Positions 2,735 to 61,955 of a stretch of DNA of 64,000 bases are shown here, one piece after another. The notes below the pieces were generated by a model that saw nothing but the letters and a program-made list of their open reading frames with translations, made no database searches and had not been told where the DNA came from. Each line of letters begins with the position of its first letter. Within the stretch, counting starts at the first letter, position 1. This DNA is from Chiridota heheva (Eukaryota; Echinodermata; Holothuroidea; Apodida; Chiridotidae). The stretch spans positions 28,501 through 92,500 of the forward strand of contig JAIGNY010000069.1 of NCBI GenBank assembly GCA_020152595.1, in the 5' to 3' direction. The position numbers and the translations under genes are program-made.

Positions 2735-3708
2735 GCCCACAATCCCGATTAAATCCACCATCAACAAGCACTCTCTCACTCACTCCCACCTCACTCACTC
2801 CCACCTCACTCACTCCCACCTCACTCACTCCCACCTCACTCACTCCCACCTCACTCACTCCCACCTCACTCACTCCCACCTCACCACTCCCACCTCACTC
2901 ACTCCCACCTCACTCACTCCCACCTCACTCACTCCCCACCTCACTCACTCCCACCTCACTCACTCCCACCTCACTCACTCCCACCTCACTCACTCCCACC
3001 TCACTCACTCCCACCTCACTCACTCCCACCTCACTCACTCCCACCTCACTCACTCCCACCTCACTCACACCCCACCTCACTCACTCCCACCTCACTCACT
3101 CCCACCTCACTCACTCCCACCTCACTCACTCCCACCCACCCACCTCACCCCACCTCACTCACTCCCACCTCACTCACTCCCACCTCACTCACTCCCACCT
3201 CACTCACTCCCACCTCACTCACTCCCACCTCACTCACTCCCACCTCACTCACTCCCACCTCACTCACTCCCACCTCACTCACTCCCACCTCCTTATTGGT
3301 TCCCCCCAACCCCTCTGTAACAATTGCCACTGCATCCTCACTATCCATCACGTTCTCCTTGCTTGCCCCTTGTACAACCTTCCCAGAGCTTCCCTCACTC
3401 CCCACAAGTCAATTGCTGAGTTCTTCCAGAAAAGTCCTCCGGATAAAATTATCTCCTTCCTTCATCATGCTTCCCTCTACAACCATTTTTAATTCTCCTC
3501 TTCCACCCCCTCTCTACATTGTTTTTGTTTCACCCATGCACCTCCTCTCTCGATCACAGCTTTCTGACTTTTGTTCTTGAATTTCTCTCATTCTCCCCCT
3601 GTTTTCTTTTCTTCCTAACTCTAAAATGATCTGACCTCTCAGGCACAATTTGACCTTCGTTGTCGTGGTGCCGTCAAGACCTCATCAAACAAACAAACAA
3701 ACAAACAG
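2735..3708 (+). pseudogene. 3' end of an RNase H-bearing LINE, nested insertion
   Basis: The sequence matches the minus-strand LINE end at 9935-10858. It shares PTIPIKSTIN, then a Cys/His segment resembling PQPLCNNCHCTLTIHHVLL, then an Ala/Phe-rich tail, and it ends in the same 3' untranslated sequence with a (CAAA)n tail at 3688-3706. This C-terminal region follows the RNase H domain in I/Jockey-group non-LTR retrotransposons. The copy is 5'-truncated, and its THSHL motif has been expanded into a minisatellite (2771-3291). The coding frame is also broken by small indels, so it is dead. Confidence 0.75.
2771..3291 (+). repeat. 15-bp minisatellite from a LINE THSHL motif
   Basis: About 35 tandem copies of CTCACTCACTCCCAC, with an irregular patch around 3061-3150. 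Because the unit is 15 bp it keeps frame and reads Leu-Thr-His-Ser-His. The sister LINE at about 10350 (minus strand) has the same motif once, as HTHLTHSHLLIGYPQP, and LINE sequence continues on both sides of the array here. The array therefore arose by expansion inside the retrotransposon frame. Confidence 0.9.
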
Positions 3709-3833
3709 AGCTTTAAACTTGAATATCTCCTTAGCGAAATAAGATTTTTGAACGCTTTCTTCACCATTTTGTTTCTTTTCGAGTCCTCTTTTATATAAGA
3801 TTGACATGCTTGACCACTGAACTAATCATTTAA

Positions 3834-5255
3834 CTTACATGAACTGTTCTGGATGAAAATTATGCTGTATACAAAATTAGGAATTAGTAGAGACTAGTTT
3901 TAAAAGGTTGTAAACATTTTTTCTAACTGTTGTAATGTATCTAGCAAAGAATTGTGTTTCTTAAATTTTAAAAACAAACATTCCTTATCATGAATGTAAA
4001 CAATTGTTGTGGGTCTCACATTTGAAATCTTTGTATTCTCCCCTGCATAACGAGCAATATTAATCTTTGCACAAATCATGCTACCCATAGGTCATTCTCT
4101 CAAAGGAAATTAAACTATTCACTCAAAGGTCATTAACCTATCCACCAAAGGTCATTAACCTACAAAAGGTTGTTAACCCACAAGTTTGTTAACTCTAAGG
4201 GTTGTTAACCCCCAAAAAGGTTAACTCCCAAACGACTTTAGCTCATGCATGATTATGTAGTAGTAGTAATAATAGATAAGATAAGGGTATATTGCAGAAT
4301 ACTAGCATCAGCTCAATTTTTCTTCAATATGAAGGAAGTTTTTGAATGAGTTTGTTTGTGTGTATGGGAATATGTTATTGTTGTACTGTTCAAGGTATCA
4401 AAATTACATTCAAGCGTCTTTTTTAAGAAATTGGAAGAAATGTTTGGAATATTTTCATGACTATAAACCACTGTTTCTTAATTAAGTTTTTCTCAGGGCC
4501 ACCATTTGACAACAGCCTCAGGCTGCGGGCCAATTGTGTGGCAAAACCTGCATAATATGGCAAACAAAACCTGTTAAAACAACCCCTGAATACAAACAAG
4601 CTGAGAGCACGTGTGATAAAGATGTCGGCGATTCTTATATCCACCTTCCTTTGACATGCTGCCAGTCTGCCCATCTTATAGCGGAACAAAAACGAGGATT
4701 TTGCAATTTTTACCAATCTCATTCGGATTGATCAGGACGTACTATATATTTTTTTCCACCATGACTATTGTTCGCGGGCCAGGTTGGATTATCTGACGGG
4801 CCAGATTTGGCCTGCGGGCCGCCTTTTAAATATCGCTGCTATACACTAATGCCATCAGTTCTTTAAAGGTTCATGGACTTGTGGTTTAAGCCACAGACTC
4901 TTTGGAAAAATAGAACACAATACATAAAGACTTCTGAGTGTGATTTCTACACAAATGAGACAGAACTTGAACGATTGAACGGAATTTGGATATCTTACTG
5001 CAACAAAATATTTGAATCCTTTCTCTACTATTTTGTTTCTTTTGGTCGAAGTCTTAAGATATAAGATGTGACTTCCTGCTGAAATAATCCTTTCTAGATC
5101 TGAGTAACATTCTCCTGTGGTATTTGTTCAGGAGAGGATTTGTTCTAAGAGGATGCAATATGTATTTGAGAATGTTTACGATTCATATATTTCACCCAGA
5201 CAGATTTAACGCACAATACCTAACAGATTTGTCTTCTCTTTCATCTTCTTCACAG
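3834..5255. other. Spacer with degenerate repeats and a diverged TIR-element copy
   Basis: Positions 4095-4225 hold degenerate copies of a GGTCATTAACCTA / GGTTGTTAACCC motif. Positions 4869-5098 resemble the TIR element at 2288 and 44462 (for example TTTTGTTTCTTTTGG and the closing AATAATCCTTT) but are strongly diverged. Around 4490-4840 there is moderately GC-rich sequence with GCGGGCC motifs; no gene is recognised in it. Confidence 0.4.
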
Positions 5256-5480
5256 TTTATTGGACAATCAAATCCAAACACTACCTTATTTGAGACCGAT
5301 GAGAGGTTTAAACATCTAGGCTTTGACATTGAGGATCTGGGATGTTGCAAGTGTATACGTCACACAGTGTGGGGAACTCATGTGTTTGTAGGAACCATCT
5401 TCACCAGTGCTCCAGCTGATTCATCCATCATTAAACAGATCGTGTGCACTACAGAACAGACAGTTGAAACTGAAAAGTGA
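5256..5480 (+). CDS. Candidate terminal exon, unknown protein
   Basis: A long pyrimidine tract (TCTTCTCTTTCATCTTCTTC) leads into CACAG ending at 5255, followed by 74 codons and a TGA. Only one frame is open. The peptide starts FIGQSNPNTTLFETDERFKH, has a CC-x-C cluster (GCCKCIRHTVWG) and ends in VETEK. It looks protein-like and well above background in composition. An alternative acceptor at 5226 would add about ten serine-rich residues and would also fit phase 1, the phase left by the upstream candidates. It is probably the last exon of the gene represented at 827 and 1487. No function is assigned. Confidence 0.5.
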   Translation, partial: FIGQSNPNTTLFETDERFKHLGFDIEDLGCCKCIRHTVWGTHVFVGTIFTSAPADSSIIKQIVCTTEQTVETEK

Positions 5481-5844
5481 TGTGGGAATATTAGTGTGCC
5501 TAATCATTTTAATGAAATAGTTATGACGATGTGATCTTGTGTTGTGTAATATTTTGAAGGTTTATGAGAATATAAAGGTTCAGAAAAGTGTGTTCAACAG
5601 CATAAATGTTCTTCAATGGGAATGAGAAAGGAATGTGGTATTCCCACCCTGGTTTCAAGTCTCTTTGCTGAAACTGGTACATTCAATCAAAAGCTCAGAT
5701 AGCATGTCATTGGTGCAACTTCATCAGAGCGCTACCACTTTATCAAGATAGATGGAACTCGTATATGTCATGATAGATGGAAAATATATTCATGATTTTT
5801 TGCAAATCTGGTGTTAGTATTTCAAAGATTAATATAGAATTTAA

Positions 5845-9934: not shown

Positions 9935-10858
9935 GTTTGTTTGTTTGTTTGATGAAGGCTTAACGGCACCACAACAACTAAGGTCAAATTGTGCCTGAGA
10001 GGTCAGATCATTCTAGAGGTAGAAAGTAAAGGAAACAGGGGGAGAATAGGAGAAATTTAAGGACAAAAGGTCAGAAAGCTATGATCGTGAGGGGAGGTGC
10101 ATGGTTGAAACAAAAACAAAGCAGAGAGGGGGTAGAAGAGGAGAATTAAATGTCGTCGTAGAGGGAGGCATGATGAAGGACAGAGATAATTTTATACGGA
10201 GGATTTTTCTGGAAGAACTCAGCAATTGAGTTGTAGGGAGCAAGGGAAGCTCTGGGAAGGTTGTACAGGGGGAAGCAAGGAGAACGTGATGGATTGTGAG
10301 GGTGCAATGGCAATTGTTGCAGAGGGGTTGGGGGTAGCCAATAAGGAGGTGGGAGTGGGTGAGATGAGTGTGACAAATTCTAAGACCGGTAATATGAACG
10401 TTGTCAATACGAGAGAGGTTGTTGATGGTGGCTTTGATCGGAATTGTGGGCTGGATGACATGGAGTTTGTTATCAATTTGGGACTTCCATGAGGTTTGCC
10501 AGCGGTCCCGAACAAGGGAAGCGATAAGCGGTTTGATGTCAGAGATGGTTTTGGGAAAAGGGGCAGGGAGGAGGGTGATGGCTGCATCAGCCCTGTCATT
10601 ACCCGCGATGCCAAAATCCCTTTTCCTGCAGAGGGTGGGAGAAAGGAGTATGCGGAGGAGGTGGCATGAGGAGTTTGGCTGAGCAACAATAAAGTTGAGG
10701 GCAAGGAGAATGGCCTTAGCCTCGGCTGAAAAGATGGATGAGTAGTTGGGAAGTCTGCTACTGAGGGTGATGTCTAGATGACCGCAGCAGCAGCTGTCTT
10801 GTTGCAGAAAGACTACTAATTCTAGAAATGTTTTCATCAGTTTGTGTTTGGCAGCCAA
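9935..10858 (-). pseudogene. LINE 3' end: RNase H tail and C-terminal Cys/His region
   Basis: The minus-strand reading frame carries a partial RNase H domain (the segment with SIFSAEAKAILLAL contains the conserved Glu helix, and FGIAGNDRAD resembles the conserved GN-x-x-AD block). It then has the typical C-terminal segment HTHLTHSHLLIGYPQP, a C-x2-C element and LTIHHVLL. This order is diagnostic of I/Jockey-group non-LTR retrotransposons with an RNase H domain. The 3' untranslated part ends at about 9935 with a (CAAA)n tail. The element is heavily 5'-truncated; the longest open frame is 259 codons. It is the reference copy for the expanded version at 2735-3708. Confidence 0.85.
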
Positions 10859-10954
10859 CCCACTTAAGGTGTTCTAAAATCTTTGAAAATAACTAAAGAT
10901 AAAATAAGGAGTTTCGGGATTCAATCTTGTTAAGATTTGTTCGCATTTATTTCA

Positions 10955-23815: not shown

Positions 23816-26160
23816 GTGCCAAGACTTAAATTACTGGGAAGCGAGTCCACTTTATTGTCTTCAATTTTTTATGATTTCATTCAAATAACATTTTTATTTA
23901 CCCAGTGGGTCAATTGGTTAGTTTTAGTCATTTTGCTAATCAGGCTGTTAATAATTCAGCTTTGATTGTTTTCACCGAAAAGCTTATATTAGCAGTAAAC
24001 TTATATCTGCTAAGACAGAGAATAGGGCTAGGGAAAAATCTACTTATAAAAACAAATTGCTTTGTAAAAGCTCTGTACCTAAATAACGTCCAAGTTGGCA
24101 CAGCTTCCAGATTGGTTTGTTGAATTTTTGGCACCATGACATGGATAGTCAAAATGTGCCCAAGAGATTAAATTATGTTAAAAAATAAACACAGGTTGGA
24201 AAAGTCAAACAGAGTGCAGTAGGTAGATATAGGATGAAGATGATTAGTGTAAAATAAATTAGATATATTTATAGTAGCAGGTACGGCATAGGAAGAAGAT
24301 TATTTTTTCTGGGGTATTTTGCGGAAAGCTCTGCAATGGAATTGAGGGGGGCTCTGGGGTGGGCGAAAAGTGGGTGGTCAATTCTAGGGATGCCCACATG
24401 GCTGGATATCCAGAAGAAAAGGATGCATTTCCTACAAAGAGTGTGGGGCGGGGAGAGGGGAAGAAGGAGTTTACTGAGGATGAGATGGGTGTTGAGGTTT
24501 TCTCATTTTAGGTTGTGTAAACAGTTTCCAGGAAAACTCCTTGGTCTCCGCCCCTACACCTTTGGCATAATCATGTTAAGCCTCCTGTTTTCAAAATGTT
24601 TGCTTTTGTTGCCAGAAATGATAAAATAAATAGGTGAGATGTGTGATTGAATTAGTCCAAATTAGACCACATTTGGAATTAATTTGTTTTGTCTGATGGC
24701 AAGTACACTGTAATTCACTCTGCTTGCCTTGACATAATCTGGGTGTTGGTTTATCAATTTTACCAAATATATTTCCAAGCTATGCAATCACCTATGCAAT
24801 TCTGATGTTCATATGACTGAACTTTGACAATTAGTTAAACATACTTATTGGCTGCTGTGAAATAAATTAATGATTTATCTGTTTTTTAAGTGTCATATAC
24901 ATTGAATATCTATTTATACAAACTCAAGTGTATTATTTTTGTTTAGAAGAGGTTGAAAATAGTCAACGTTTGTTTAAAACAAATCCTTTGAAATTATAGT
25001 ACCCAACATCGGAATGACAAAAACTGGTCTACAAATCATGGAGGTAATCTTATGATATGAAATACTGTACTGTGGTCTCTTTCAGGGCTTGTAGTGGTTA
25101 AAGGTTTTATCTTAGATTTATCAGAAATTGTTTAGCAACACAGTGTACATCCAACAACTTTTTAACTTTGAAATGTTCTGTTTAAAACAAATACAGCATG
25201 TCTTTATTCATGTAAATATTTTTGTGTTTGTATTTAATATTTCGAATATGGGTTGATATTTGTATTAGAATATAGAATAGTTTTTCATAAAATAAAACAA
25301 ATCTTCAGCAAGGAACTTCTAAATACAATATCGACAATTGGCAGGTAATCCTTGACAATTGGCAGGTAATTCTTGACAATTGGCAGGTAATTCTTGGTGT
25401 TTTCAAGTGTCAGAAGATGAAGTTTCCAGTAAACAGGCCTTTTTCAAAATCAGTTACAATCCGGCAAAATCTCCATGGCAAAAGTATGTATTGAAACAAT
25501 GTACACAAGCTCAAATAAGTTTTGGTATGACTCGGAAATTGATTTCAAATTTCGTATTGTATCAAACTGTAATGCTCATTTACCTTCTTTGGGTATATTT
25601 TAAACTGTGCAATCAGGAGGGTAAAACAAAACTTTTCAGAGAAATCACTTTTATAGCATTACACAATGACAACTTTGATTAAATTCTCAACATCACTTAC
25701 TGTCAGCTTGGCAATGCCTCTCTTATTCATTAGATTGGTGTATGATCTATGCTAGTAAATATGAAGTTATTTCCCGATTGTTTTATTTACAAACATCACT
25801 TGCATGTTTGATTGAAATCATTCGTGCGACTTACTTACTAAAGGTAAAGCAAACTATTAATACAATACTTATTAAATCAAATTTAAATATGTGTTTCTTA
25901 AAAAAAGAGAATTTCAGAACCCATATGTGATCTACAGAGATTTGTTCATATTATATTAGTGTTCCCCTTTGCCAATACCATGAATGGAAACTTTAGTGCA
26001 ATATTTGGCTTTCTTTAGTGATGCAAATATATTTGAAGAAGAAAATATTTTCTTAATCCCGTGTTTTCTCTTTTAATTGACTTTAAGTTAGACCAAAAAG
26101 TGATTTAACAAAAAATAACATTTTGTATTTTATATTCCATATGTTTGTGTGCCATATTCA
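23816..26160. other. Non-coding spacer with one short tandem repeat
   Basis: AT-rich stretch. At 25332-25397 there are three copies of the 21-bp unit GACAATTGGCAGGTAATTCT(T). The GC-richer patch at 24336-24560 has a 97-codon open frame (24336-24629) with no recognised family. No RNA gene is seen. Confidence 0.4.
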
Positions 26161-36200: not shown

Positions 36201-39200
36201 TTCAATTGAGTAGTTTGAACAAGTCATGTAAACCCTAATCAAGATCCAAATGAACTAATCATTCAATTGAGTAGTTTGAACAAGTCATGTAAACCCTAAT
36301 CAAGATCCAAGCGAAGTAATTATTCAATTAAGTACTGTAGTTTGAACAAGTCATGTAAACCCTAATCAAGATCCAAGCGAAGTAATTATTCAATTGAGTA
36401 CTGTAATTTGAACAAGTCATGTAAACCCTAATCAAGATCCAAGTAGACTACTAATTCAATTGAGTAGTTTGAACAAGTCATGTAAACCCTAATCAAGATC
36501 CAAGTGGACTTATCATTCCCATTATTTGCAGAGATTGATTTAAGGAAGACTTGAAGAATTACATACAGATTTTAAGCTGACTTTGCATTTAATAATCACA
36601 AATCTTTATACATCACTGCAGGAGATTGACTGGGATAACTTAAAAGCTAAATTTGCTATATCTGAAATTTGATTTATTTCAGGAACTATCATAATATTTC
36701 AAATCATAAAAAATATTTGATTTACCTATGCCTTTGAAGTAAGATGTTATCTGAAACTTTCCTCCACTGGAAGGATCTAAGCCAGTGGCAGCATAAACTC
36801 TGTCTTGAAATGGTATTGAGAATGGAGATTCCGAGGGATAAAACGAAGTGCTGTATGACCACTTCAAGACTTTCTGCAACTCAGCTGAAAGACTTGTGTT
36901 CATACACTTGGTATCTAAATTTGATAATGAAAATGAGGCAAAAAAACAACAACAGTTTGATCTCTCCAGGTAATAATACTGATACAGGGATGTTCTCTGT
37001 TACGTTACGTGTTTGACCAGCCAGAGAATGGCCCCCTGCAGTGGATCCCTGGGAGACCCCAGGGGTCTGCTGGAGCCGTTCTCTGTTACGTTACGTGTGT
37101 GTGACCAGCCAGAGAATGGCCCCAGTGGATCCCTGGGAGACCAGAGGGTCTGCTGGGGCCAATTTCTGTTATGTTACGTGTGTGTCCAGCCAGGAATGGC
37201 CCAGTGGATCCCTGGGCAACCCCAGGGGTCCACTGGGGCCGTTCTCTGTTACGTTACATGTGTGACCAGCCAGAGAATGACCCTACAACAAAAATTTAAA
37301 ATTTTTAGAAACATTTGATAACAAATTTCTGATATCTATGGGGTATGATTATTTGGTTACTTATGTATCCATGGATATAAAATGAAACAAGATAAATTAA
37401 GCTTGGTTATAATTTTATTAATTACCTCCACTAACGGGTTTGTAAACTCCATCATATTTTAGGTATATGGCAAGCACTCATTAAAATCTCAAATTGTACT
37501 AGACCCTAAAACTAATGGAATTAACCATGTAACCTGTAAATTGTAATAAACAATGCTTTAATTTTCCATGTCAAACTAAATAATTGCATTGATCAAAACT
37601 CATTAATGAGCCCTTATTTGCACATGCCTTACTACAAATGAAACAATAAGTCAAAATTGCTTGAAAAAAAAACACATGATTGACCTGTGCTATTTTGTAG
37701 TTGATAAAACACACCTGGGGTGAAATCTTTATTGGTAATTTTCCAGTCCTTGTTGTTGTCGCTTAAATGCTTTTGCAGAGTTGAAAGAGAATCAAAGCAA
37801 ATTATTGGTGTGTTCTTATTCATTTCTTTAACATGTTTGATATGTGCATTCATCAGTCCATCACATTCCCGATTTGTCAAGAAGTTCTCAATCTTGTAAA
37901 CTCTGCCAATAAAAAAAAAAGAAACTTCACTTTCTACTTGTTTGTGTTTGCAGTAAAGGAGTGAGGTTGGTTGGTGGGATCAGAGATCTTGTGCTGCTTC
38001 CCACGAACATGAATCACTTTCTTCCCTCTAGTGTCTCAATATGAAGCCACTAGGACTAATGTCATTGACAAGAGTCCTGACAACAGGGAGACCACACTGT
38101 TTGTGACATAAAGAGCCCTAAATAATAGTGATTTTTTGGAAATGGACACTTTTACATTGTATGTAATGAACCTCTTTGATCATGATGTACTTATGTCCCA
38201 GGTTTGCATATTTGCAAGGTTTTTCAAACAGGGGTGAGGTTTAACAGCACCTTGAGTCTTAAATTGTGTCAGAGAGGTTAATTTATACCAAACAAGGCAC
38301 TGCAAAATGACATGAATCTCCTCACCACTGACAACCCACCTTGCCCACATATCACTAACAACCCTTACTCCTTACTTGCCCGCCCACCTCCAAGTCACTT
38401 TTTATTTTGCTCTGTAGCATCTGCTTTCCACTTGGTCTGTCATCACCAATATCTCCATCTTCTACATGTCATGCCCAACATCCCAACCTTCTGCCCTACC
38501 AAGTACTCCTTATACAACCCATGATTCACCCTAGTACTCCCCGTAAGACTGATGCCAGCCATGTTAGTATGGCTGCTGTTAGTGATGGCTGGCCGTCCGA
38601 GCCTCGTACGGCAATCCCAATGTCAACCGTACTTAGGGATGTGTATAATACTGTAACTAGATTCAACCTACCCACTTTACCCAATCTATCTATAATCTTC
38701 CATGTCCCATTCACTCATTATTCCACCCTTACTGTATCTACCATCCTCAAATCACCTCCCATAGTCAATACATATGCCATCCCAAACACATCCTACTATC
38801 ATCCATCTCTGAGCACCTCTCACCATCCACCCACCAACCCTTCCCAATCCTTGGCTTCAGCATTCCGCCAGCTGCTTCACTCACCTGCACTTTCTTTCCC
38901 ACCCATCTACCAATCTTGCCACTGTTATTGCACTACTCAAAATTTGCCAATTTTTTTATTGGCTGACAATTTGGAATTACAGGTATGATGCTTTAAGATT
39001 TGACCAATAGACTAACTGGATTAAAAAATGTTGTCAGAGTTACATTTGGCATGCACATGGCGGCAGGTCATCACAACTACATGTACACAAAATCCTTTAA
39101 GACTTGTTGGAATTTTCAGCCTTCTGCAACTGCATGCTAACCCATACAGTACAAAATGGACACAATATAATATTAATGTAATTCCTTAATCAAGAAACAT

Positions 39201-42460: not shown

Positions 42461-42967
42461 GGAAGTGGAGGGGAAGGGGGGAGGGGGGGGCGCTGAAAGT
42501 AGCAGTACATAAATATTTGAAATAACATGCAAACTTTCTGGTATGTGTCCTAACAGCTTTGTCCAAGATTGTCTGATAAATGTCATTAAGAGAAAATATC
42601 GTAAATGTCAATGGAAAAATAGTTTTATGCAGGGAAGTCATGAAATAAAAAAAAATAAAAAAAACAGAGATTCAATTGTTTTGAAAATTCAGGACAATAC
42701 AATAAAAGGTATTAACTTCTAGTGGACTGTGCTATTTTCAGTAGATAGGAAATATGTGATTTATTCTTTTTTTCAGTACAAAAACTCTTGTTTGCAACCA
42801 GTTTTCTTCAGAATATCTGAGTGCTTTATTCTTGACCAAATGCATTCTTTTATGGATTTGGAATAACATGGGAAATGATGGCAGTTAGAGGTGGGGATGG
42901 GAGAGGTGGGGAGGAGAGAAGTGGCCGAGAAGGAGACCTGAAATGATGGCATTTACGTGAAATGTAT
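42461..42967. other. Non-coding spacer
   Basis: Contains a poly-purine patch at 42458-42490 (GGGGAGGGGGGGG-like) and GA-rich sequence around 42890. No gene is recognised. Confidence 0.3.
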
Positions 42968-43965
42968 TTCAATTTTTTCCTTCTTCAGATTCCAGCATGT
43001 AAACAAAAAGTAGTTTCGACATGCTCATATTGCTTTTCTAATCTTGTTATGAAAAATACCGTACAAGAATAAAGGGAAGCCAGGATATTGATGGAAATGT
43101 AACAGTTCAATAACATTTGATGAAATAAAAGAAATATAACACAATTTTGTAAATAACAAAAACTGTTAGATTCCATGTTTAAATTAGACATGCCTCACAC
43201 TCTCGCCTTAGCTAACTGATTAACCAAATTTGCATTCCATAATTTTGTCTTTTATTTGAAGAAATTAAAGAGAATTTCTACTTGTTTGTGTTTGCAGTAA
43301 AGGAGTGAGGTTGGTTGGTGGGATCAGAGATCTTGTGCTTGCCACGAACATGAATCATTTTCTTCCCTCTGGTGTCTCAACATGAAGCCACTAGGACTAA
43401 TGTCATTGACAAGAGTCCTGACAACAGGTACACCAGACTGTTTGTGACATAAAGAGCCCTAAATAATAGTGATTTGTTGGAAATGGACATTTTTACATTA
43501 TATGTAATGAACCTCTTTAATCATGATGTACTTATGTCCCAAGTTTGCATATTTGCAAGGTTTTTCAAACAGGGGTGAGGTTTAACAGCACCTTGAGTCT
43601 TAAATTGTGTCAGAGAGGTTAATTTATACCAAACAAAGCAAAATGTATTTCAATTTTTTCCTTCTTCAGATTCCAGCATGTAAACAAAAAGTAGTTTCAA
43701 TATGCTCATATTGCTTTTCTAATCTTGTTATGAAAAATATCATACAAGAATAGAGGGAAGCCAGGATATTGATGGAAAAGTAACAGTTCAATCAAATTTG
43801 ATGAAATAAAAGAAATATGACACAATTTTGTAAATAACAAAAACTGTTAGATTCCATGTTTAAATTAGACGTGCCTCACACTCTCGCCTTAGCTAACTGA
43901 TTAACCAAATTTGTATTCCATAATTGTGTCTTTTATTTGAAGAAATTAAAGAGAATTTATACGTT
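42968..43965 (+). repeat. Block A - repeat B copy 2 - block A'
   Basis: Block A (42968-43275) recurs as A' (43645-43965), for example CTTCTTCAGATTCCAGCATG and AATTAGAC-GTGCCTCACACTC, in direct orientation with few differences. Repeat B copy 2 (43276-43638) fills the space between them. The arrangement is a tandem duplication of A with B lying at, or inserted near, the junction. Confidence 0.85.
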
Positions 43966-44461: not shown

Positions 44462-44813
44462 TCATATTTTGTGGCTTAAAAACTATGGGATATGTCAAAA
44501 AAGTAGTAAAACTGAATCTAGAAAGGGTATTTATAATATACCACCTGAAGAAAGTTTGAGGAAAATTAATTCAAATAGTAAAAACATTCAATAAACTTTC
44601 TTTAAAATACATATAGACTTTGATGAATTTGAGGCCGTGACATTATAACTTGTCTGATTCTAGTCGTTTCTACAGAAATGATACCACACTTTAAACTTGA
44701 ATATCTCCTTAACGGAATAAGATTTTGCAATGCTTTCTTCACCATTTTGTTTCTTTTGAAGTCTTCTTTCATATAAGATGGACATGCTTGACCACTGAAC
44801 TAATCCTTTAAGC
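44462..44813 (+). mobile_element. TIR element copy, left end truncated
   Basis: Matches the interior and right TIR of the element at 2288-3833 (TTTGTGGCTTAAAAACTATG to GACCACTGAACTAATCCTTT). It has no LINE insertion and serves as the empty-site reference for that insertion. Its left TIR is missing at the junction with repeat X. Confidence 0.8.
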
Positions 44814-44819
44814 AAGTCA

Positions 44820-46490
44820 AAAAACTCTGTGCACTCCACGTCGTCCAAGATTGTGTGAAGGGATAGTGCAACAGTTTTCCCAGTTTATGTCAGGAAAATT
44901 ACAATCACCAGCAAGGATGATGTTGAGATGTGTATGAGGATGCTTCCTGAGGATTAAGCTGAGACTGAGGATAATCACCAGCAAGGATGATGTTAGGAAG
45001 TGCACGAGGATGCTTCTTGAGGACTAAGCTTAGACTGAGGATAATCACCAGCAAAGATGATGTTATGTAGTGCACGAGGATACTTCTTGAGGACTAAGCT
45101 TAGACTGAGGATAATCACCAGCAAGGATGATGTTTTTAAGTGCATGAGGATGTTTCTTGAGGACTAAGCTTAGACTGAGGATAATCACCAGCAAGGATGA
45201 TGTTATGAAGTGCACGAGAATGCTTCTTGAGGACTAAGCTGAGACTGAGGATAATCACCAGCAAGGATGATGTTATGAAGTGCACGAGGATGCTTCTTAA
45301 GGACTAAGCTTAGACTGAGGATAATCACCAGCAAGGATGATGTTATGAAGTGCACGAGGATGCTTCTTGAGGACTAAGCTTAGACTGAGGATAATCACCA
45401 GCAAGGATGATGTTATGAAGTGCACGAGGATGCTTCTTGAGGACTAAGCTTAGACTGAGGATAATCACCAGCAATGATGATGTTATGAAGTGCACGAGGA
45501 TGCTTCTTGAGGACTGAGCTTAGACTGAGGATAATCACCAGCAATGATGATGTTATGAAGTGCACGAGGATGCTTCTTGAGGACTAAGCTTAGACTGAGG
45601 ATAATCACCAGCAAGGATGATGTTTTTAAGTGCATGAGGATGCTTCTTGAGGACTAAGCTTAAACTTAGAATAATCACCAGCAAGGATGATGTTGGGAAG
45701 TGCATGAGGATGCTTCTTGAGGATTAAGCTTAGACTGAGGATAATCACCAGCAATGATGATGTTATGAAGTGCATGAGGATGCTTCTTAAGGACTAAGCT
45801 TAGACTGAGGAAAATCACCAGCAAGGATGATGTTAGGAAGTGCATAAGGATGCTTCCTGAGGATTAAGCTTAGACTGAGGATAATCACCAGCAATGATGA
45901 TGTTATGAAGTGCAGGAGGATGCTTCTTGAGGACTAAGCTGAGACTGAGGATAATCACCAGCAAGGATGATTTTATGAAGTGCACGAGGATGCTTCTTGA
46001 GGACTAAGCTTAGACTGAGGATAATCACCAGCAAGGATGTTGTTAGAAAGTGCATGAGGATGCTTCTTGAGGATAGACTATCTTGCAACTGATTACGCTG
46101 ATCTTTAAGTGAAGTGTATCCAGGTGACCTAGTAAGTGCCAAGATATAACGTACTATTTCTGGCAAATTCTATGGAGATCCACGTTATTTCAGTCAGTGA
46201 TACGCTGTGCTCTGTCAGTAGCGATAACATCATTTTATCAGCTATAAATACTGCACCTCCTAAGGCATTTCTGTCATTGCAAAAGACAAAATATCCATGG
46301 AGAATATGGAATATGTTGGAAAGGTATTATCTAGATTCACAGCCAGAAACAATATACGGTTTGTACATTACTAACTCCGCCTCAAAAACTTTGTCTATTG
46401 TTGGATTATTCAGTCAGACCAGAATCACGATAGTTTACACCCCAGAAAATAGGTATTTTCTGCCTCTAGGTCTAAAAAAAAAAGTGATAA
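44820..46490 (-). pseudogene. LINE APE-type endonuclease fragment, split by a tandem array
   Basis: On the minus strand, 46480-46090 carries the upstream part of an AP-endonuclease-like domain (GGAVFIADKMMLSLLTEHS, then RSPGYTSLKDQRNQLQDSLS). 44905-44820 carries the next conserved part (NIILAGDCNFPDINWENC), corresponding to the G-G-D-F-N-x-P-x-x-x-W motif. Between them the frame is replaced by the 70-bp array. Both flanks belong in order to one non-LTR retrotransposon endonuclease. The plus-strand open frame at 46136-46516 is its shadow. Confidence 0.8.
44890..46080 (-). repeat. 70-bp array from LINE endonuclease coding sequence
   Basis: About 17 copies, 70 bp each (plus-strand unit containing ATAATCACCAGCAAGGATGA, TGTTATGAAGTGCACGAGGA and TGCTTCTTGAGGACTAAGCT). 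Read on the minus strand a unit gives LSLVLKKHPRALHNIILAGD, which is the endonuclease segment leading into the catalytic GDFN motif. The period is not a multiple of 3, so the frame changes from unit to unit. Confidence 0.92.
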
Positions 46491-46739: not shown

Positions 46740-47190
46740 TCATGGTTGGCCGATACGTTAGGAATGCAGGCCTGTCCCTTACCAAAATTCCAGATCTGGC
46801 CCAGATATAAATTCCAGATCTGGGATTTATATCAAATCCAGATCTGCCCAGATAAAGAATTGGGCAGATATAAATTCGAATTTGATCTGGCCAGATCAAA
46901 CTTTGTATGGAAAATTCCAGATCTGGATATTATATCTGGCCCAGATCAAACTTGATTTGGAATTTTCAGATCTGGAAAGTCCAGATCAAGTTTGATCTGG
47001 AGCCAGATCAAGTATGAATTAATATCTGCCCAACCTCTTTATCTGGCCAGATCTGGAACTTCCAGATCAAGTTTGATCTGAACCAGATCTGAGTTTGATA
47101 TAATTCCCAGATCTGGGAATTAAACCTGGGCAGATCTGGAATTTATATCTAGCCCTGGGAATTAAATCTGCCACAAATCTGAATTCTGAG
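46740..47190. repeat. AGATCT-rich palindromic repeat region
   Basis: Many overlapping copies of CCAGATCTGG, CTGGCCAGATC and TTTGATCTGG in both orientations, giving dense short inverted repeats. It is related to 47715-48320, where the same words occur in direct orientation. Confidence 0.8.
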
Positions 47191-47714
47191 CCCATCACTA
47201 ACATGTGGTATTGGTGAGCCAGCTCTAACGTATAAAAAAGCCTTTCAGTTGTACAAAGTGCGTAGTCATAACTGAATGAGATCCTTTAACAATTTATACT
47301 TAATATAACAAAATGGGCATGAGCTTTGTTTTCCACTTTTTAGTTTCATTATGAGAACAAAAATTCCCTGAAAATTCAAACCAAATGTTTGAAATAAATT
47401 ATTTAAGGAATTAAGCCACAGAATTAAGTAAATACATACTAGATTGATCATATAAATTTGATAGAAATATTAATGCAGTTATAAATCACTATTTCTGCAT
47501 GAACATTTATTGGTGTCAATTATTTGACTCCACCCATCACATTTTGTACTTTATTGGTGGATGCTTAAGGAAGCACTTCAGTCAATACAGAGCCACACAA
47601 CAGGACTGAGTCTTCATATCTGCATGCTGAATCACAATAAATCAAATATTATCCACCTTTTTATTTTTAAATCACTTTTTCATTAATAATATAAATCTAA
47701 TGTAGCATAAAATC
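47191..47714. other. Spacer
   Basis: AT-rich sequence between two parts of the AGATCT-type repeat; nothing else recognised. Confidence 0.3.
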
Positions 47715-48320
47715 AAGCTTATGTCTGGCTTGATCTGGCCATATCAAACTTTATTTGTATATCAAATTGACTTTAATCAAGGTTATATCTGACTTTATCT
47801 GGCCAGATCAAACTTTATTTGCATGTCAAATTGAGCATTAAATCCACTTTACATCTGGTCTGATCTGGCCTGATTTAACTTAATTTGTATATCAAATTGA
47901 CTTTAATCAACAGATCAAGGTTATATGTGGCTTTATCTGGCCAAATGAAACTTTATTTGAATATCAAAAGTAGCATTTAATACATCTTATATATGGCTTT
48001 ATCTGCCCAGATCAAACTTTATTTGTATATCGAATGTAGCATTAGATCCATTCTATATCTGGCTTGATTTGGCCAGATCAAACTTTATTTAGGTATCAAA
48101 TTGACTTTAATCAAGGTTATATCTGACTTTATCTGGCCAGATCAAACTTTATTTGTATATCCAATGTAGCATTTAATCCATCTTATGTCTGGCTTTCTCT
48201 GGCCAGATTAAACTTTATTTGTTTCTCAAGGTTTTTTTATATCAAGTTTATATCTGGCTTTATCTAACCAGGTCAAACTTTATTTTTCCAGATATAAACT
48301 TTATTAAAGCCAGATCTGGA
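47715..48320 (+). repeat. Direct repeats with ATCTGGCCAGATCAAACTTT core
   Basis: Seven to eight imperfect units of roughly 60-120 bp, each with ATCTGGCCAGATCAAACTTT followed by ATTTGTATATCAAA and either TTGACTTTAATCAAG or GTAGCATTTAATCC. The alternation suggests a compound unit. Confidence 0.85.
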
Positions 48321-50229: not shown

Positions 50230-52205
50230 TCCAAAACCAAAAAGTAATGGACTCAGTTATGGGAGATCGTACCCGAACTCTCAAAATCATGGCCCTAAAC
50301 AGCCAAAAGTCATGAAAATTATTCCTATTATAAGGATATATCATGGTCCATAGCTCTTGGGCCCAATGAAAGTTTTGTGCCAGACTTCTGACATATGGGG
50401 GCAAAAACCCAACTACCCCTTAATCCTGTGTATAGCTCTCATATTTGGGAGATTGTTTCTGGACCCTCAAAAATGGGCCCAAATTGAACAAAAGTCGGGA
50501 AATTGCTATAATATGGTTATCACATGGTCCTTGGGCCCAGTGAAGGTTTTGTGCCAGACTTCTGACATATGGGGGCAAAAACTCAACTACGCCTTTTCTT
50601 TTTGTTATAGGTCTCATTTCTGGGAGATCGTATCTGGACCCTCAAAAACGGGGCCCTAAATGGCCAAAAGTGGTGAAAATTATTGCTAGAATAAACATAT
50701 ATCATGGTCCATAGCCCTTGGGCCCAGTAAAGGTTTTGTGTCAGATTTCTGACATATGGGGGCAAAAACCCAACTACCCTTTAATCCTGTGATATAGCTC
50801 TTATTTCTGGGAGATTGTATCTGGACCCTCATAAATGGGCCCAAATTGACCAAAAGTCGGGAAATTGCTATAATATGATTATTACATGGTCCATGGCCCT
50901 TGGGCCCAGTAAAGATTTTGTGCCAGATTTCTGACATATGGGGAAAAAATACCACCTATTCCTTAATCCTGTAGTATATGTCTCATTTCTAAGAGATCGT
51001 ATCTGGACCCTCAAAAACGGGACCGTAAATGGCCAAAAGCGGTGGAAATAATTGCTAGCAGAAAGTTATATTATGGTCCATGGCCCTTGGGCCCAGTGAA
51101 GGCTTTGTGCCAGACATCTGACATATGGGGAAAAAACTCAAATACGCCTAATCTCTGTGGTATATGTCTCATTTCTGAGAGATCGTATTTGGACCCTCAA
51201 AAACGGGGCTCTAAATGGCCAAAAGTGGTTAACTTCATTGCTAGCATAAACATATATCATGGTCCATAACCTTTGGGCCCAGTGAAGGTTTTGTACCAGA
51301 CTTCTGACATATGGGGGGAAAAAGCCCAACTACCCTTTAATCTTGTAGTATAGCTCTCGTTTCTGGGAGATCGTATCTGGACCTTCAAAATTGGGGCCTG
51401 AATTGACCAAAAGTCGGAAAATTGCAATAATATGGTTATCACATGGTCCATGGTCCTTTGGCCCAGTGAATGTTTTGTGCCAGACTTCTGACATATGGGG
51501 TAGAAGCCCTACTACCCCTTAATTTTGTGGTATAGCTCTCATTTCTGGGAGATTGTATCTGGACCTTCAAAAATGGGACCCAAATTGACCAAAATTCGGG
51601 AAATTGCAATAATATGGTTATCACATGGTCTTTGGACCCAGTGAAGGTTTTGTGCCAGATTTCTGACATATGGGGGCAAAAGAACACCTACCCTTTATTC
51701 CTGTGGTATATGTCTCATTTCTGGGAGATCGTATCTGGACCCTCAAAAACGGGGCCCTAAATGGCCAAAAGCGGTGGAAATAGTTGCCAGCATAAACATA
51801 TATCATGGTCCATAGCCCTTGGGCCCAATGAAGGTTTTGTGCCAGACTTCTGACATATTGGGGAAAAAGCCCAACTATCCCTTAATCTTGTGGTTTAGCT
51901 CTCATAACTGGGAGATTGTATTCGGACCTTCAAAAATGGGGCCCAAATTGACCAAAAGTCGGGAAATTGCTATAATATGGTTATCACATGGTCCTTGGGC
52001 CCGGTGAAGGTTTTGTGCCAGACTTCTGACATATGGGGGCAAAATACCACCTACCCCTTACTCCTGTAGTATATGTCTCACTTCTGGGAGATTGTATCTG
52101 GACCTTCAAAAACGGGGCCCTAAATGGCCAAAAGCGGTGGAAATAATAGCTAGCAGAAAGTTTTATTATGGTCCATGGTCCTTGAGCCCAGTGAAGGTTT
52201 TGTGC
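50230..52205 (+). repeat. ~184-bp array, 10-11 units of two alternating types
   Basis: Each unit contains GGGCCCAGTGAAGGTTTTGT, GCCAGACTTCTGACATATGG and GGGAGATCGTATCTGGACC. Type A ends GTCGGGAAATTGCTATAATA; type B ends GGTGGAAATAATTGCTAGCA. The order is irregular, roughly alternating. The open frames on both strands are artefacts. Confidence 0.92.
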
Positions 52206-52949
52206 CTGAAAAAAAATATCATGAGAATATATTTGTATATACTTTTTATTCTCAACTTCTGCAATTTGTATGATTTACAAAATAAATGTTGTTGATATTT
52301 TCCCTCAAAGCTTTATTCTTACTTTCAAAACATGAAAACCATACCTGCACCCCTACTAAAGACACATATTGTAGTCAATAGGATCCTACATTTGAACATT
52401 CGTTCCAAAATATATATTCCTTTGAACTATTTTTACTGTGGAATTGACACAATTTTAAGCAATTTTTTGGTACCCAATTTACGCTGAAAACGCCAAGTTT
52501 TCCTTGACTTGGTCCCTGGGCGCCGATAAGGACGGCAACTCTGGATTTCACATATTATTATGCTATTTTATGCTATTAAAATCGCAAATGCAGGGTTTCC
52601 AGGCATAAGCATATACGCATTTTTTTCGGGGAAAATTGTTGACAATTTGTTTTTATTGATAGATAAACTGATATCCGAAGATAGATACAAAAATTGATCA
52701 AATAAATTAATCGTTTCCGATTAATTAATCTTTGCGTTTTTGATTCACTTTTTAAAATCTGAAAATAGTATGAAAAAAAGATCATGTTGGACAGATGTGT
52801 CCATGTTTATTACTTTACTTTATGATATTTTTTCAGGTATGCATGCCGGGAATATTATATTATTTCAAAAATTCGTTGCTGACAGCATTGATAATACGAG
52901 CAAATTATCTGATAAGGAAGTAACGCCAGGACTGCAGGAGGAGCCAGGA
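52206..52949. other. AT-rich segment inside the inverted-repeat element
   Basis: No array, gene or clear repeat. A plus-strand open frame from 52740 runs into the right inverted repeat and has no recognised family. Confidence 0.35.
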
Positions 52950-55937: not shown

Positions 55938-57335
55938 AACACCTTACCTTACCTTACCTAGCTGCCTCATGCCAGGTAGCATAATAAGCCTCCACACAAT
56001 ATTTCCACTCACTCCTGCATGCTTGCCGGCTGCAACAATCTTGGTTTCGTTCCATGTTTTCCACCCTGCCTGGTTTCTTTCCTTTTCAACGGTTCTCCTC
56101 CCAAGTCGTTTTGGGTCTCCCTCTTTTGCGTTTTCCGTCAGGTGCTCGTGTTAGAGCTGTCATGCTGTTCGTGCTTTAATATTTGAATAATGAATTTCCA
56201 TTCCCTTTGTCTGATCATAGAGATATCCATATAGTATCTCCATGGTCTGATTAGGAAGTTGTTAAGTTCTTGGTCTGATATTATCGCTGAGGAGTTGGAT
56301 ATCAGCTCTGTAGTACTTCCTTGTTTGAAATTTTCTGTTGCCATAATATGTTAAGGATTCTTCGTAGGTATTTGTGTTGGAAAACGTCAACAGTTTTTCG
56401 TCACCTTTATTCATTTTCCAGATTTCGCTTCCGTACAGGACTGCAGGAGAATAGGCTTTACTAGGGTTTTGTACAGCTTGATCTTTGTATTTTTGCTAAT
56501 ATTGCTTAAGCTCCATACCTTTTTTGAGTCTCACGAATGTACTTTATGTAATCTATTGTGGATACCACTCTGCCACTTGATTCTCCTCCTTCTTTGGACA
56601 TAGCACCCAGGTAGATACAACTTTCTACGTTCACTCTTATAAATAAAGGTTCTAGCTTGTCACGTATTTGGAAGCGTTTCGGGTTCTTTAGGAATTATTT
56701 TAAAGAGCTACCTAAAACAAAAAGGTTCGAACTTGTCACGTTTTTGTAAGCTTCTCGTCTTTATAATCCAGTTTTCCAAGAGTTGTCAACAACATCTCCA
56801 TTTACTGTGCTTCTTGTATTGAATTTCATGATCTTGCACTTCTGTGTGTTAAATTTTAATTTGCGGTTCTTTTAGCCTATTTTGTTAGCCTGGTGGTCTT
56901 TGTTTGCATATGCCGTTTGCTGGTTTAGTAGAGGATAGGTCTATGTTGTCAAGTTTGATGTGAACTTCTATCTGATTCCTATTTCGCCATTCTGCACCGC
57001 TCTCCTTATCACCCAGAACAACAGGAAACCTGCCATTGGGTAGTTTTGTTTCACACCAGTATTAACTGGTAACCGGTTAGTTGTGTCATTTTGATCAATT
57101 ACAGCACAGTTGAAAGTGTCGTATACATGGCTTTCACGATGCCGATTTGTTGGGTATTCCGTATTGTTTCATGATTAACCAAATGGATACTCTATGAACT
57201 GAGTCAAATACCTTTTCAAAGTCGATGAAGTGCACATACAGTCATGACAGTGGGGCTTGCCATTTGTTGACCTGTTCGATGTTTCTTAGTATGACTGTAT
57301 GAAGTAGTTCCTTTACCTTTTGTGAACATTGCTTG
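55938..57335 (-). pseudogene. RTE-type LINE, reverse transcriptase to 3' end
   Basis: The minus-strand order is: KEQAMFTKGKGTT (the RTE E-Q-A-G-F-R-K-G-R motif), then HFIDFEKVFDSVHRVSIW (the F-I-D-F-x-K-A-F-D-S-V motif), a decayed middle, a KLDNIDL region, FNTRSTVNGDVVDNS-like sequence, and a C-terminus with PDGKRKRGRPKTTW and a Trp-rich end. The 3' end has an (AAGGT)n tail at about 55938-55958. Frames are broken many times. Upstream of the KEQA motif the sequence turns directly into the 23-bp array. Confidence 0.82.
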
Positions 57336-60300
57336 TTCCTTTTGTTATCTGTTCCTTTCTCGGTTTGTTATCTGATCTTTTCTTAGTTTGTTATCTGCTC
57401 TTTTCTCAGTTTATTATCTGTTCCTTTCTCAGTTTGTTATCTGTTCCTTTCTCAGTTTGTTATCTGATCTTTTCTCAGTTTGTTATCTGATCTTTTCTCA
57501 GTTTGTTATCTGTTCCTTTCTCAGTTTGTTATCTATTCCTTTCTCAGTTTGTTATCTGTTCCTTTCTCAGTTTGTTATCTGTTCCTTTCTCAGTTTGGTA
57601 TCTGTTCCTTTCTCAGTTTGTTAGCTCTTCCTTTCTCAGTTTGTTATCTGTTCCTTTCTCAGTTTGGTATCTGTTCCTTTCTCAGTTTGGTATCTGTTCC
57701 TTTCTCAGTTTGTTGGCTCTTCTTTTCTCAGTTTGTTATCTGTTCCTTTTCAGTTTGGTATCTGTTCTTTTTCAGTTTGTTATCTGTTCCTTTCTCAGTT
57801 TGTTATCTGTTCTTTCTCAGTTTGTTATCTGTTCCTTTTCAGTTTGTTATCTGTTCCTTTTCAGTTTGTTATCTGTTCCTTTCTCAGTTTGTTATCTGTT
57901 CCTTTCTCAGTTTGTTATCTCTTCCTTTCTCAGTTTGTTATCTGTTCCTTTTCTCAGTTTGTTATCTGTTCTTTTCAGTTTGTTATCTGTTCCTTTCTCA
58001 GTTTGTTATCTGTTCCTTTCTCAGTTTGTTATCTGTTCCTTTCTCAGTTTGTTATCTGTTCCTTTCTCAGTTTGTTGGCTGTTCCTTTCTCAGTTTGTTA
58101 TCTGTTCCTTTCTCAGTTTGGTATCTGTTCTTTCTCAGTTTGTTATCTGTTCCTTTCTCAGTTTGTATCTGTTCTCAGTTTGTTCCTTTCTCAGTTTGTT
58201 GGCTGTTCCTTTTCAGTTTGTTATCTGTTCCTTTCTCAGTTTGTTATCTGTTCTTTTTCAGTTTGTTATCTGTTCCTTTCTCAGTTTGTTATCTGTTCTT
58301 TTCTCAGTTTGTTATCTGTTCCTTTCTTCAGTTTGGTATCTGTTCTTTCTCAGTTTGTTATCTGTTCTTTCTCAGTTTGTTATCTGTTCCTTTCTCAGTT
58401 TGTTATCTGTTCTTTCCTCAGTTTGTTATCTGTTCCTTTCTCAGTTTGTTATCTGTTCCTTTCTCAGTTTGTTATCTGTTCCTTTCTTAGTCTGTTGGTT
58501 GTTCCTTTTCTCAGTTTGTTGGTTGTTCCTTTCTCAGTTTGTTATCTGTTCCTTTCTCAGTTTGTTATCTGTTCCTTTCTCAGTTTGTTATCTGTTCCTT
58601 TCTCAGTTTGTTATCTGTTCCTTTCTCAGTTTGTTGGCTGTTCCTTTCTCAGTTTGTTATCTGTTCCTTTCTCAGTTTGTTATCTGTTCCTTTCTCAGTT
58701 TGTTATCTGTTCCTTTCTCAGTTTGTTATCTGTTCCTTTCTCAGTTTGTTATCTGTTCCTTTCTCAGTTTGTTATCTGTTCCTTTCTCAGTTTGTTATCT
58801 GTTCCTTTCTCAGTTTGTTATCTGTTCCTTTCTCAGTTTGTTATCTGTTCCTTTCTCAGTTTGTTATCTGTTCCTTTCTCAGTTTGTTATCTGTTCTTTT
58901 CTCAGTTTGTTATCTGTTCCTTTCTCAGTTTGTTGACTGTTCCTTTCTCAGTTTGTTATTTGTTCCTTTCTCAGTTTGTTATCTGTTCCTTTCTCAGTTT
59001 GTTATCTGTTCCTTTCTCAGTTTGTTATCTGTTCCTTTCTCAGTTTGTTATCTGTTCCTTTCTCAGATTGTTATCTGTTCTTTCTCAGTTTGTTGGCTGT
59101 TCCTTTTCAGTTTGTATCTGTTCTTCTTTCTCAGTTTGTTATCTGTTCTTTTCAGTTTGTATCTGTTCTTTTTTGTTTTAATCTGTTCCTTTCTCAGTTT
59201 GGTATCTGTTCTTTTCTCAGTTTGTTATCTGTTCCTTTCTCAGTTTGTTATCTGTTCCTTTCTCAGTTTGTTATCTGTTCCTTTCTCAGTTTGTTATCTG
59301 TTCCTTTCTCAGTTTGTTGGCTGTTCCTTTCTCAGTTTGTTATCTGTTCTTTTTTCAGTTTGTATCTGTTCTTTTCAGTTTGTTATCTGTTCCTTTCTCA
59401 GTTTGTTATCTGTTCCTTTCTCAGTTTGTTATCTGTTCCTTTCTCAGTTTGGTATCTGTTCCTTTCTCAGTTTGTTGGCTCTTCCTTTCTCAGTTTGTTA
59501 TCTGTTCCTTTCTCAGTTTGGTATCTGTTCTTTTCTCAGTTTGTTATCTGTTCCTTTCTCAGTTTGGTATCTGTTCTTTTCTCAGTTTGTTATCTGTTCC
59601 TTTCTCAGTTTGTTATCTGTTCCTTTCTCAGTTTGTTATCTGTTCCTTTCTCAGTTTGGTATCTGTTCCTTTCTCAGTTTGTTGGCTCTTCCTTTCTCAG
59701 TTTGTTATCTGTTCCTTTCTCAGTTTGTTATTTGTTTCTTTCTCAGTTTGTTATCTGTTCCTTTCTCAGTTTGGTATTTGTTCTTTTCTCAATTTGTTAT
59801 CTGTTCCTTTCTTAGTCTGTTGGTTGTTTCTTTCTCAGTTTGTTATCTGTTCTTTTCTCAGTTTGTTATCTGTTCCTTTCTCAGTTTGTTATCTGTTCTT
59901 TCCTCAGTTTGTTATCTGTTCCTTTCTCAGTTTGTTATCTGTTCCTTTCTCAGTTTGTTATCTGTTCCTTTCTTAGTCTGTTGGTTGTTCCTTTTCTCAG
60001 TTTGTTGGTTGTTCCTTTCTCAGTTTGTTATCTGTTCCTTTCTCAGTTTGGTATCTGTTCCTTTCTTAGTCTGTTGGTTGTTCCTTTCTCAGTTTGTTGG
60101 CTGTTCTTTTCTCAGTTTGTTATCTGATCTTTTCTCAGTTTGTTATCTGTTCTTTTCTCAGTTTGTTATCTGTTCCTTTCTTAGTCTGTTGGTTGTTCCT
60201 TTCTCAGTTTGTTGGCTGTTCTTTTCTCAGTTTATTGGCTGTTCCTTTCTCAGTTTGTTGGCTGTTCCTTTCTCAGTTTGGTATCTGTTCCTTTCTCAGT

Positions 60301-61955
60301 TTAGTATCTGTTCTTTTCTCAGTTTGTTATCTGTTCCTTTCTCAGTTTGGTATCTGTTCTTTTCTCAGTTTGTTATCTGTTCCTTTCTCAGTTTGGTATC
60401 TGTTCCTTTCTCAGTTTGGTATCTGTTCCTTTCTCAGTTTGTTATCTGTTCTTTTTTCAGTTTGTTATCTGTTTCTTTCTCAGTTTGTTATCTGTTCTTT
60501 TTTCAGTTTGTTATCTGTTCTTTTCTCAGTTTGTTATCTGTTCCTTTCTCAGTTTGGTATCTGTTCTTTTTTCAGTTTGTTATCTGTTCTTTTCTCAGTT
60601 TGTTATCTGTTCCTTTCTCAGTTTGGTATCTGTTCTTTTTTCAGTTTGTTATCTGTTCCTTTCTCAGTTTGTTATCTGTTCCTTTCTTAGTCTGTTGGTT
60701 GTTTCTTTCTCAGTTTGTTATCTGTTCCTTTCTCAGTTTGTTATCTGTTCCTTTCTTAGTCTGTTAATTGTTCCTTTCTCAGTTTGTTATCTGTTCCTTT
60801 CTCAGTTTGTTATCTGTTCTTTTCTCAGTTTGTTATTTGTTCCTTTCTCAGTTTGGTATCTGTTCTTTTCTCAGTTTGTTATTTGTTCCTTTCTCAGTTT
60901 GGTATCTGTTCCTTTCTTAGTCTGTTGGTTGTTCCTTTCTCAGTTTGTTGGCTGTTCTTTTCTCGGTTTGTTATCTGATCTTTTCTCAGTTTGTTATCTG
61001 TTCTTTTCTCAGTTTGTTATCTGTTCTTTTCTTAGTCTGTTGGTTGTTCCTTTCTCAGTTTGTTGGCTGTTCCTTTCTTAGTTTGTTATTTGTTCCTTTC
61101 TCAGTTTGGTATCTGTTCTTTTCTTAGTCTGTTAATTGTTCCTTTCTCAATTTGTTATCTGTTCCTTTCTCAGTTTGTTATCTGTTCCTTTCTTAGTTTG
61201 TTATTTGTTCCTTTCTCAGTTTGTTATCTGTTCCTTTCTTAGTCTGTTAATTGTTCCTTTCTCAGTTTGTTATCTGTTCCTTTCTCAGTTTGTTATCTGT
61301 TCTTTTCTCAGTTTGTTATTTGTTCCTTTCTCAGTTTGGTATCTGTTCTTTTCTCAGTTTGTTATTTGTTCCTTTCTCAGTTTGGTATCTGTTCCTTTCT
61401 TAGTTTGTTGGTTGTTCCTTTCTCAGTTTGTTATCTGTTCTTTTTCAGTTTGTTATCTGATCTTTTCTCAGTTTGTTATCTGTTCTTTTTCAGTTTGTTA
61501 TCTGTTCTTTTCTTAGTCTGTTGGTTGTTCCTTTCTCAGTTTGTTGGCTGTTCTTTTCTCAGTTTGTTATCTGTTCCTTTCTCAGTCTGTTCGTTGTTCC
61601 TTTCTCAGTTTGTTATTTGTTTCTTTCTCAGTTTGTTATCTGTTATTTTCTCAGTTTGTTATCTGTTCCTTTCTCAGTCTGTTATCTGTTCTTTTCTCAG
61701 ATTGTTATCTGTTCCTTTCTTAGTCTGTTGGTTGTTCCTTTTCTCAGTTTGTTGCCTGTTCCTTTCTCAGTCTGTTGGCTGTTCCTTTCTCAGTTTGTTG
61801 GCTGTTCCTTTCTCAGTTTGTTATCTGTTCCTTTCTCAGTTTGTTATCTGTTCCTTTCTCAGTCTGTTGGCTGTTCCTTTCTCAGTTTGTTGGCTGTTCC
61901 TTTCTCAGTTTGTTGGCTGTTCCTTTCTCAGTTTGTTATCTGATCTTTTCTCAGA
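57336..61955 (-). repeat. 4.6-kb array of a 23-bp unit from RTE coding sequence
   Basis: About 200 copies of a 23-bp unit, read on the minus strand as CA-GATAACAAACTGAGAAAGGA-A. It encodes D-N-K-L-R-K-E-Q, which is exactly the RTE segment leading into the EQA motif at 57335. Variants include TTGGCTG, GGTATCTG and TTGGTTG forms of the plus unit and frequent 1-2 bp deletions. Blocks such as the TCTTAGTCTGTTGGTTGTTC variant recur and show higher-order duplication. The plus strand is stop-free, giving a false frame of up to 742 codons. Confidence 0.95.

Follow-up and report, generated by a model that had tools for sequence, protein, structure and literature searches.

Tandem arrays with units from LINE coding sequence in Chiridota heheva: one seed position followed from one to 34 units within a genome

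How do short segments of LINE coding sequence come to be repeated in tandem, and are LINEs favoured over other DNA when this happens? The question is raised by a window of 64,000 nucleotides, the whole stretch analyzed here, corresponding to bases 28501-92500 of contig 72 (one assembly, 1.1 Gb in 3744 contigs). An initial annotation of this window proposed that units of 15, 70 and 23 bp, taken from the post-RNase H, endonuclease and reverse transcriptase (RT) regions of three LINEs, had become tandem arrays. The three origins are borne out, the endonuclease identification being the weakest; the arrays are also distinct, as had been claimed, from the expansion of tail repeats at LINE 3' ends, being positioned in ORF regions and not in a 3' tail. 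Arrays and parent elements are indicated below as A, B and C; of the names that we take to designate LINE clades (I-like, CR1/L2-like, RTE-like), none is applied to these elements.

Array A, with the shortest unit, is located within a LINE A copy, while a second copy in the same window is free of it:

2735..2774, plus strand: LINE A (RT + RNase H type) before the array, in a copy truncated at the 5' side; 88% identity to 10451-10411
2775..3291, plus strand: array A, unit CTCACTCACTCCCAC x34 (TRF: 15 bp x 34.2 at 2775-3291), LINE A post-RNase H region; seed of one unit in other copies
3292..3710, plus strand: remaining LINE A ORF, 3' end and (AAAC)n tail; 89% identity to 10373-9935, tail recognized by eye
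9935..10873, minus strand: second LINE A copy, with a single seed unit and without array; tblastn match to the relative L055, E 2e-70

The array interrupts LINE A on both flanks, and the array-free copy, at 10451-9935, matches both. The (AAAC)n tail, found at about 3680-3707, is separate from the array, and the 3' part of the element (3292..3710) is 95-96% identical to 39 further copies scored in the genome. In L055, residues 63-184 of a 312-aa frame correspond to an RNase H domain (E 5e-11), and about 70 residues separate the end of this domain from the seed: the label "post-RNase H" is therefore correct for array A. The window copy of LINE A is itself inserted within a repeat with inverted ends, at 2287-3833 (about 2287-2731 on one side and 3711-3833 on the other), a copy of which, without the insertion, is present at 44466-44811. 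A further fragment, featuring a LINE A-like ORF, is located at 24319-24543.

LINE A is present in the genome in thousands of copies, and the origin of the 15-bp unit may be read in them. The native seed is GGTCACA[CCCACCTC]ACTCACT[CCCACCTC]CTTATTGG, where an 8-bp direct repeat, in brackets, recurs with a period of 15, the same as that of the array A unit. Of 29 copies examined besides that of the window, 15 have an exact 8-bp repeat, and in the other 14 it is changed or missing; nearly all of the 29 contain one unit, sometimes altered. In one copy (L049), exactly 15 bp, that is one unit, are lost between the 8-bp repeats. Genome-wide, 5062 matches were found for at least one exact unit followed by the native 3' junction, and 42 loci, window included, feature at least two exact units; the reversed-pattern control gave 0 in both cases, and exact matching makes these counts lower bounds. 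Unit numbers are available for 41 of the 42 expanded loci, one locus on C3728 being left out: 24 loci contain two units, 8 three, 3 four, and one seven; four arrays are long, extending past what could be read or counted cleanly, and the window array has 34. One of the loci with four units (L089) is composed of two pairs, with a short interruption between them.

Other changes are observed around the same position. A common variant of LINE A, probably a subfamily, has a seed shorter by one base (ACTCCTCCC). An identical duplication of 18 bp, immediately downstream of the seed, is shared by copies on C1019, C1525 and C3326, through recurrence or through common descent. On C1767 (854812-854935), a 23-bp duplication overlaps the 3' side of the seed, seemingly in at least three copies, forming a further small array in the LINE A region.

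The tendency of the seed to acquire insertions was compared with that of a neighbouring LINE A interval of equal native length. Insertions of 10-40 bp number 9 in the seed interval (five in the 15-bp register, three represented by one 18-bp duplication, and one of 23 bp) and 2 in the control; all of them, in both intervals, are tandem duplications by eye, and the C1767 locus appears in both lists. The difference gives p 0.065 for all insertions (9 vs 2) and p 0.45 for those in array register (5 vs 2), a base of 3088 being applied to seed and control alike and the control's own base not being counted. An added pull of the 8-bp repeat on duplication is thus suggested, not proven. Direct repeats of this kind are not peculiar to LINEs: three LINE A copies contain 4, 8 and 1 repeats of at least 8 bp at a spacing of 10-100 bp, as compared with about 3 in shuffled sequence (a fourth locus was swamped by an unrelated array). 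Five LINE C copies contain 3 to 9 direct repeats of at least 8 bp each, with the LINE C seed among them in four; about 3 are expected by chance per 1.9 kb of such sequence.

Array C, by far the longest of the three, is found at the other end of the window:

55942..57340, minus strand: LINE C, RT and 3' part; matched by up to 29 of 66 LINE loci
57341..61961, minus strand: array C, unit CTGAGAAAGGAACAGATAACAAA (minus strand) x201 (TRF: 23 bp x 201 at 57341-61961), LINE C RT domain; second array on C1297
61960..62150, no strand assigned: 31-bp array adjoining array C; no LINE similarity with the library used

LINE C pieces from the window show 70-86% identity to other genome copies, with one 36-bp piece reaching 92%. 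The native seed, [AAGGAACA]GATAACAAACTGAGA[AAGGAACA]AGCAGG, again features an 8-bp direct repeat, at a spacing of 23 bp, which is the array C unit. Of the 29 loci of relatives, 13 have this repeat in exact form and 16 in an altered one; L016 and L017, both among the 29, cover overlapping portions of a single copy. The relatives continue through the seed, which lies inside RVT_1 (E 1.3e-28 and 5e-16). LINE homology reaches the array on the left side only: on the right, the array is followed by the 31-bp array, and the LINE lacks its 5' part.

A 46-base dimer of the 23-bp unit finds 120 matches in the window and 0 in the shuffle control. Genome-wide, 156 dimers were found, allowing up to 3 mismatches: 120 in the window and 36 elsewhere. 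Among the matches listed outside the window, 29 of the 36, all are located on C1297, at 354853-355754, where they form a second array. The two arrays have a common basic unit; of five variant types listed for C1297, one is shared and four are absent from array C, a distribution that would suit separate growth of the two. When array C is divided into blocks of 20 units, the most uniform are found in the middle (0.85-1.25 edits per unit vs 1.25-2.30 elsewhere), which could be a product of unequal exchange; as for higher-order structure, a weak excess is present at several lags, none being dominant. On the plus strand, at 57468-61977, open frames of up to 758 aa run through the array: rather than genes, they seem to be a consequence of a repeat unit that contains no stops. 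For annotators, this would mean that arrays with open frames as long as these can be dead LINE sequence.

The 70-bp array B is the case where identification of the parent element is weakest:

44820..44902, minus strand: putative endonuclease of LINE B, on the downstream side of the array (reads ...AGDCNFPDINWENCC); by eye, Pfam
44903..46073, minus strand: array B, 70-bp unit x16.7 (TRF: 70 bp x 16.7 at 44903-46073), each unit encoding SLSLVLKKHPRALHNIILAGD once; TRF, by eye
46074..46340 (outer end approximate), minus strand: putative endonuclease of LINE B, on the upstream side of the array (NALGGAVFIADK...LYLGTY...NQLQDSLS); a broken sequence, followed by eye through two frames

By eye, both flanks appear to be LINE endonuclease, on the minus strand. 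A 51-aa piece spanning the array end matches Exo_endo_phos_2 with E 0.002, below the curated Pfam cut-off; the upstream piece, searched alone in Pfam, gave no endonuclease match. A genome search for further 70-bp arrays, in which very common words were skipped, found none, and returned one single-copy match, on C3267. This relative is unlike LINE B before the unit start, where it is truncated. The unit junction of array B contains six bases (ATCCTC) that neither flank has, and the comparison with the single relative, truncated at the unit start, reveals no direct repeat at 70 bp. An origin of array B from a direct repeat was not adopted, on account of both observations.

Two more arrays were met in loci which had been fetched for other reasons, and not by array searches. 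At L051:735-1120, five copies of a 77-bp unit (VNRLLNHLEQDLLPESQCGFCADRG) have RT-like sequence on both sides by eye; short pieces of this locus found no match in Pfam. The array junction features 2 bp of homology, and not flanking direct repeats of 5-10 bp. L081 is the only other significant match of the LINE B endonuclease search: at L081:2376-3096, an array of 71-bp units follows a LINE endonuclease, at a point where the element presumably leads on to RT, and by eye its units would be LINE coding sequence. For L081, L051 and the upstream flank of array B, the reading as LINE domains leans partly on motifs that we take to be diagnostic. The proposal that the pattern is a recurring one holds: besides the three window arrays, there are the 42 loci, window included, with at least two exact 15-bp units, the second array of the 23-bp unit, and the LINE-related arrays of L051 and L081.

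These arrays are probably minisatellites, which started from chance short tandem duplications in dead LINE copies and expanded at the same site. In arrays A and C, the 8-bp direct repeats would have allowed strand slippage (or an unequal exchange) to generate the first duplication; with several perfect units available, further slippage, gene conversion or unequal exchange would account for growth. The initial annotation had listed rolling-circle copying, replication slippage and break-induced synthesis as possible mechanisms: slippage (or unequal exchange) between the 8-bp repeats is enough for the 15- and 23-bp arrays, and the other two are unneeded there. For the 70-bp array B and the 77-bp array of L051, the first duplication seemingly occurred with little homology, and an event of the end-joining or nick fill-in type is therefore more likely. 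The direct-repeat model covers two (A and C) of the four arrays judged.

The duplication might also be placed within retrotransposition, the LINE RT slipping between the direct repeats, with only the later growth being chromosomal; we regard this as unlikely. Short direct repeats are natural sites of RT slippage. Two copies with two units (L088 and L096) are within about 3% of a native LINE A copy, and Ahmed and Liang (PMC3389668) argue that initiation may be tied to retrotransposition. The exact unit search, however, is sensitive only to undiverged units, and provides therefore little direct evidence for RT slippage; moreover, long arrays are not explained by it, unless later growth is added.

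The relationships among LINE A copies bear on a different possibility, namely that a master LINE A, already carrying two units, was copied often, so that the 42 loci would be mostly inherited, with some losses. For 17 expanded copies and 22 natives, a tree built on 389 flanking columns requires at least six gains or losses; well-supported branches force three of them, which could represent a single gain with two losses. One well-supported cluster contains 12 of the 17 expanded copies, and the tree holds no natives of that subfamily, which leaves room for a duplicated master, as does the fact that unit loss is real (L049). The tree natives are a biased sample, having been chosen by similarity to the 3' flank of the window LINE A. 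Natives with a short or unlike upstream region (L049, L051, L060, L062, L065, L066) were left out, and likewise L095; L040, L089 and L101 were not entered, and L103-L122 are too short. The grouping of all expanded copies into a single clade is rejected (AU p 6e-5), and with it a duplicated master without losses. In addition, copies with two and three units are found with both main upstream types (by eye: TTGGT, 11 and 2; TAGGT, 9 and 4), and those with four and seven units with TAGGT and, in one copy, CTGGT. A master copied with some losses is accordingly rather improbable; several separate births in LINE A are likely, their number not being fixed by these data.

A stronger process may be read in the original proposal: amplification across the genome, by rolling circle or break-induced synthesis, with dead LINEs as its preferred seeds. 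Its appeal comes from the load of tandem repeats, since 20 arrays with at least three copies make up 23% of the window, and from L051 and L081, which came to light unsought. Yet arrays represent 6.5% of 65 other LINE-anchored loci: the window is richer, and hence not typical. In the window, 3 of the 20 arrays are in LINEs, where 1.36 are expected (P 0.15), the LINE share being at least 6.8% of non-array DNA, as measured by the small family library at hand; the other 17 have no match to this library. In the 65 loci (228 kb, half of it LINE), 8 of 34 arrays touch a LINE, one having LINE on both sides and seven on one side, in a sample that favours uninterrupted LINEs and is thereby biased against LINE-embedded arrays. 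Neither set shows enrichment, and a LINE-specific amplifier was rejected on this account. Of the original proposal, the supply of seeds by dead LINEs stands, whereas a preference for LINEs finds no support in these two samples: we infer that LINEs contribute through their abundance, and not through targeting. The ladder of two, three and four units, too, suits stepwise growth better than a single burst, and the strong amplification process is, on the whole, very improbable.

Additional repeats of the window are the following: a direct duplication of 1 kb, self-overlapping, with 90% identity (30981-31977 and 31727-32733); two segments of 320-370 bp, repeated with 96% identity at distances of about 0.7 and 5 kb (37931-38299, 42960-43281 and 43275-43962); a region dense in the palindromic motif TCTGGCCAGATC (46785-48285), with a 66/130-bp periodicity at 47710-48285; and an array with periods of 187 and 363 bp (50252-52206), perhaps a two-step higher-order repeat. 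An Rfam search of the window found no match at gathering scores, and three other open frames, searched in Pfam, gave nothing above cut-off.

Long arrays are often misassembled in length; that the arrays as such are an assembly artefact, or that their resemblance to LINE proteins is due to chance, is hardly credible, because exact matches to the seeds occur in unexpanded copies from many contigs, while pattern and shuffle controls gave 0, and chance similarity was rejected on the former ground.

Stepwise growth in place has precedents. In the model of Haber and Louis 1998, as cited in PMC6947457 and PMC3389668, where its outline is given, a motif flanked by direct repeats of 5-10 bp becomes the unit of a minisatellite. 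Arrays A and C share this anatomy, each having one ancestral unit with an 8-bp repeat, at a spacing of 15 and 23 bp, respectively; it is absent from L051 and, in the comparison with the one truncated relative, not visible in array B. For array A, both intermediates of two to four units and unit loss at the same repeat are observed, as the model predicts. Arrays A and C are thus cases of a known type of minisatellite birth, and satellites derived from LINE ORF2 have already been published.

For human minisatellites, Ahmed and Liang 2012 (PMC3389668) report that 23% are derived from transposable elements, by initiation followed by stepwise expansion in place; that 300 of 7276 are flanked by direct repeats of 5-20 bp; and that multi-locus clusters exist, with fewer loci as the number of units rises. 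The source elements named there are mostly Alu, LTR12 and ERV, with some L1, while LINE coding sequence is the source here; one seed position is, in addition, traced here across roughly 5000 copies belonging to one LINE family. PROsat of Phodopus, Pvc 20 of seal and chicken HinfI/CR1, as listed in PMC9659126, are ORF2-derived satellites whose units are partly LINE coding sequence, as in our case; they are named satellite families, whereas those described here are minisatellites at single or few loci, with seed and intermediates still visible. The maize arrays CRM1TR and CRM4TR, according to PMC3648361, arose separately from similar regions of related retrotransposons, with growth by gene conversion being proposed: repeated births are a common feature, but the maize arrays are derived from LTR and UTR sequences of centromeric retrotransposons. 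In open-access literature listings, no paper was found which traces one LINE position through all its copies.

As to the genome as a whole, we tentatively consider that it may form and grow short tandem duplications unusually fast. LINE A would then act as a natural replicate: about 5000 copies of the seed, of which about 0.8% have started expanding. The number of loci drops steeply with each added unit (24, 8, 3) before a leap to long arrays, as though growth turned rapid above about four units. The starts of minisatellites are usually inferred from finished arrays; the LINE A ladder provides a system in which births and growth may be counted. With one LINE position available at stages from 1 to 34 units within one genome, rates of birth, loss and growth become directly measurable.
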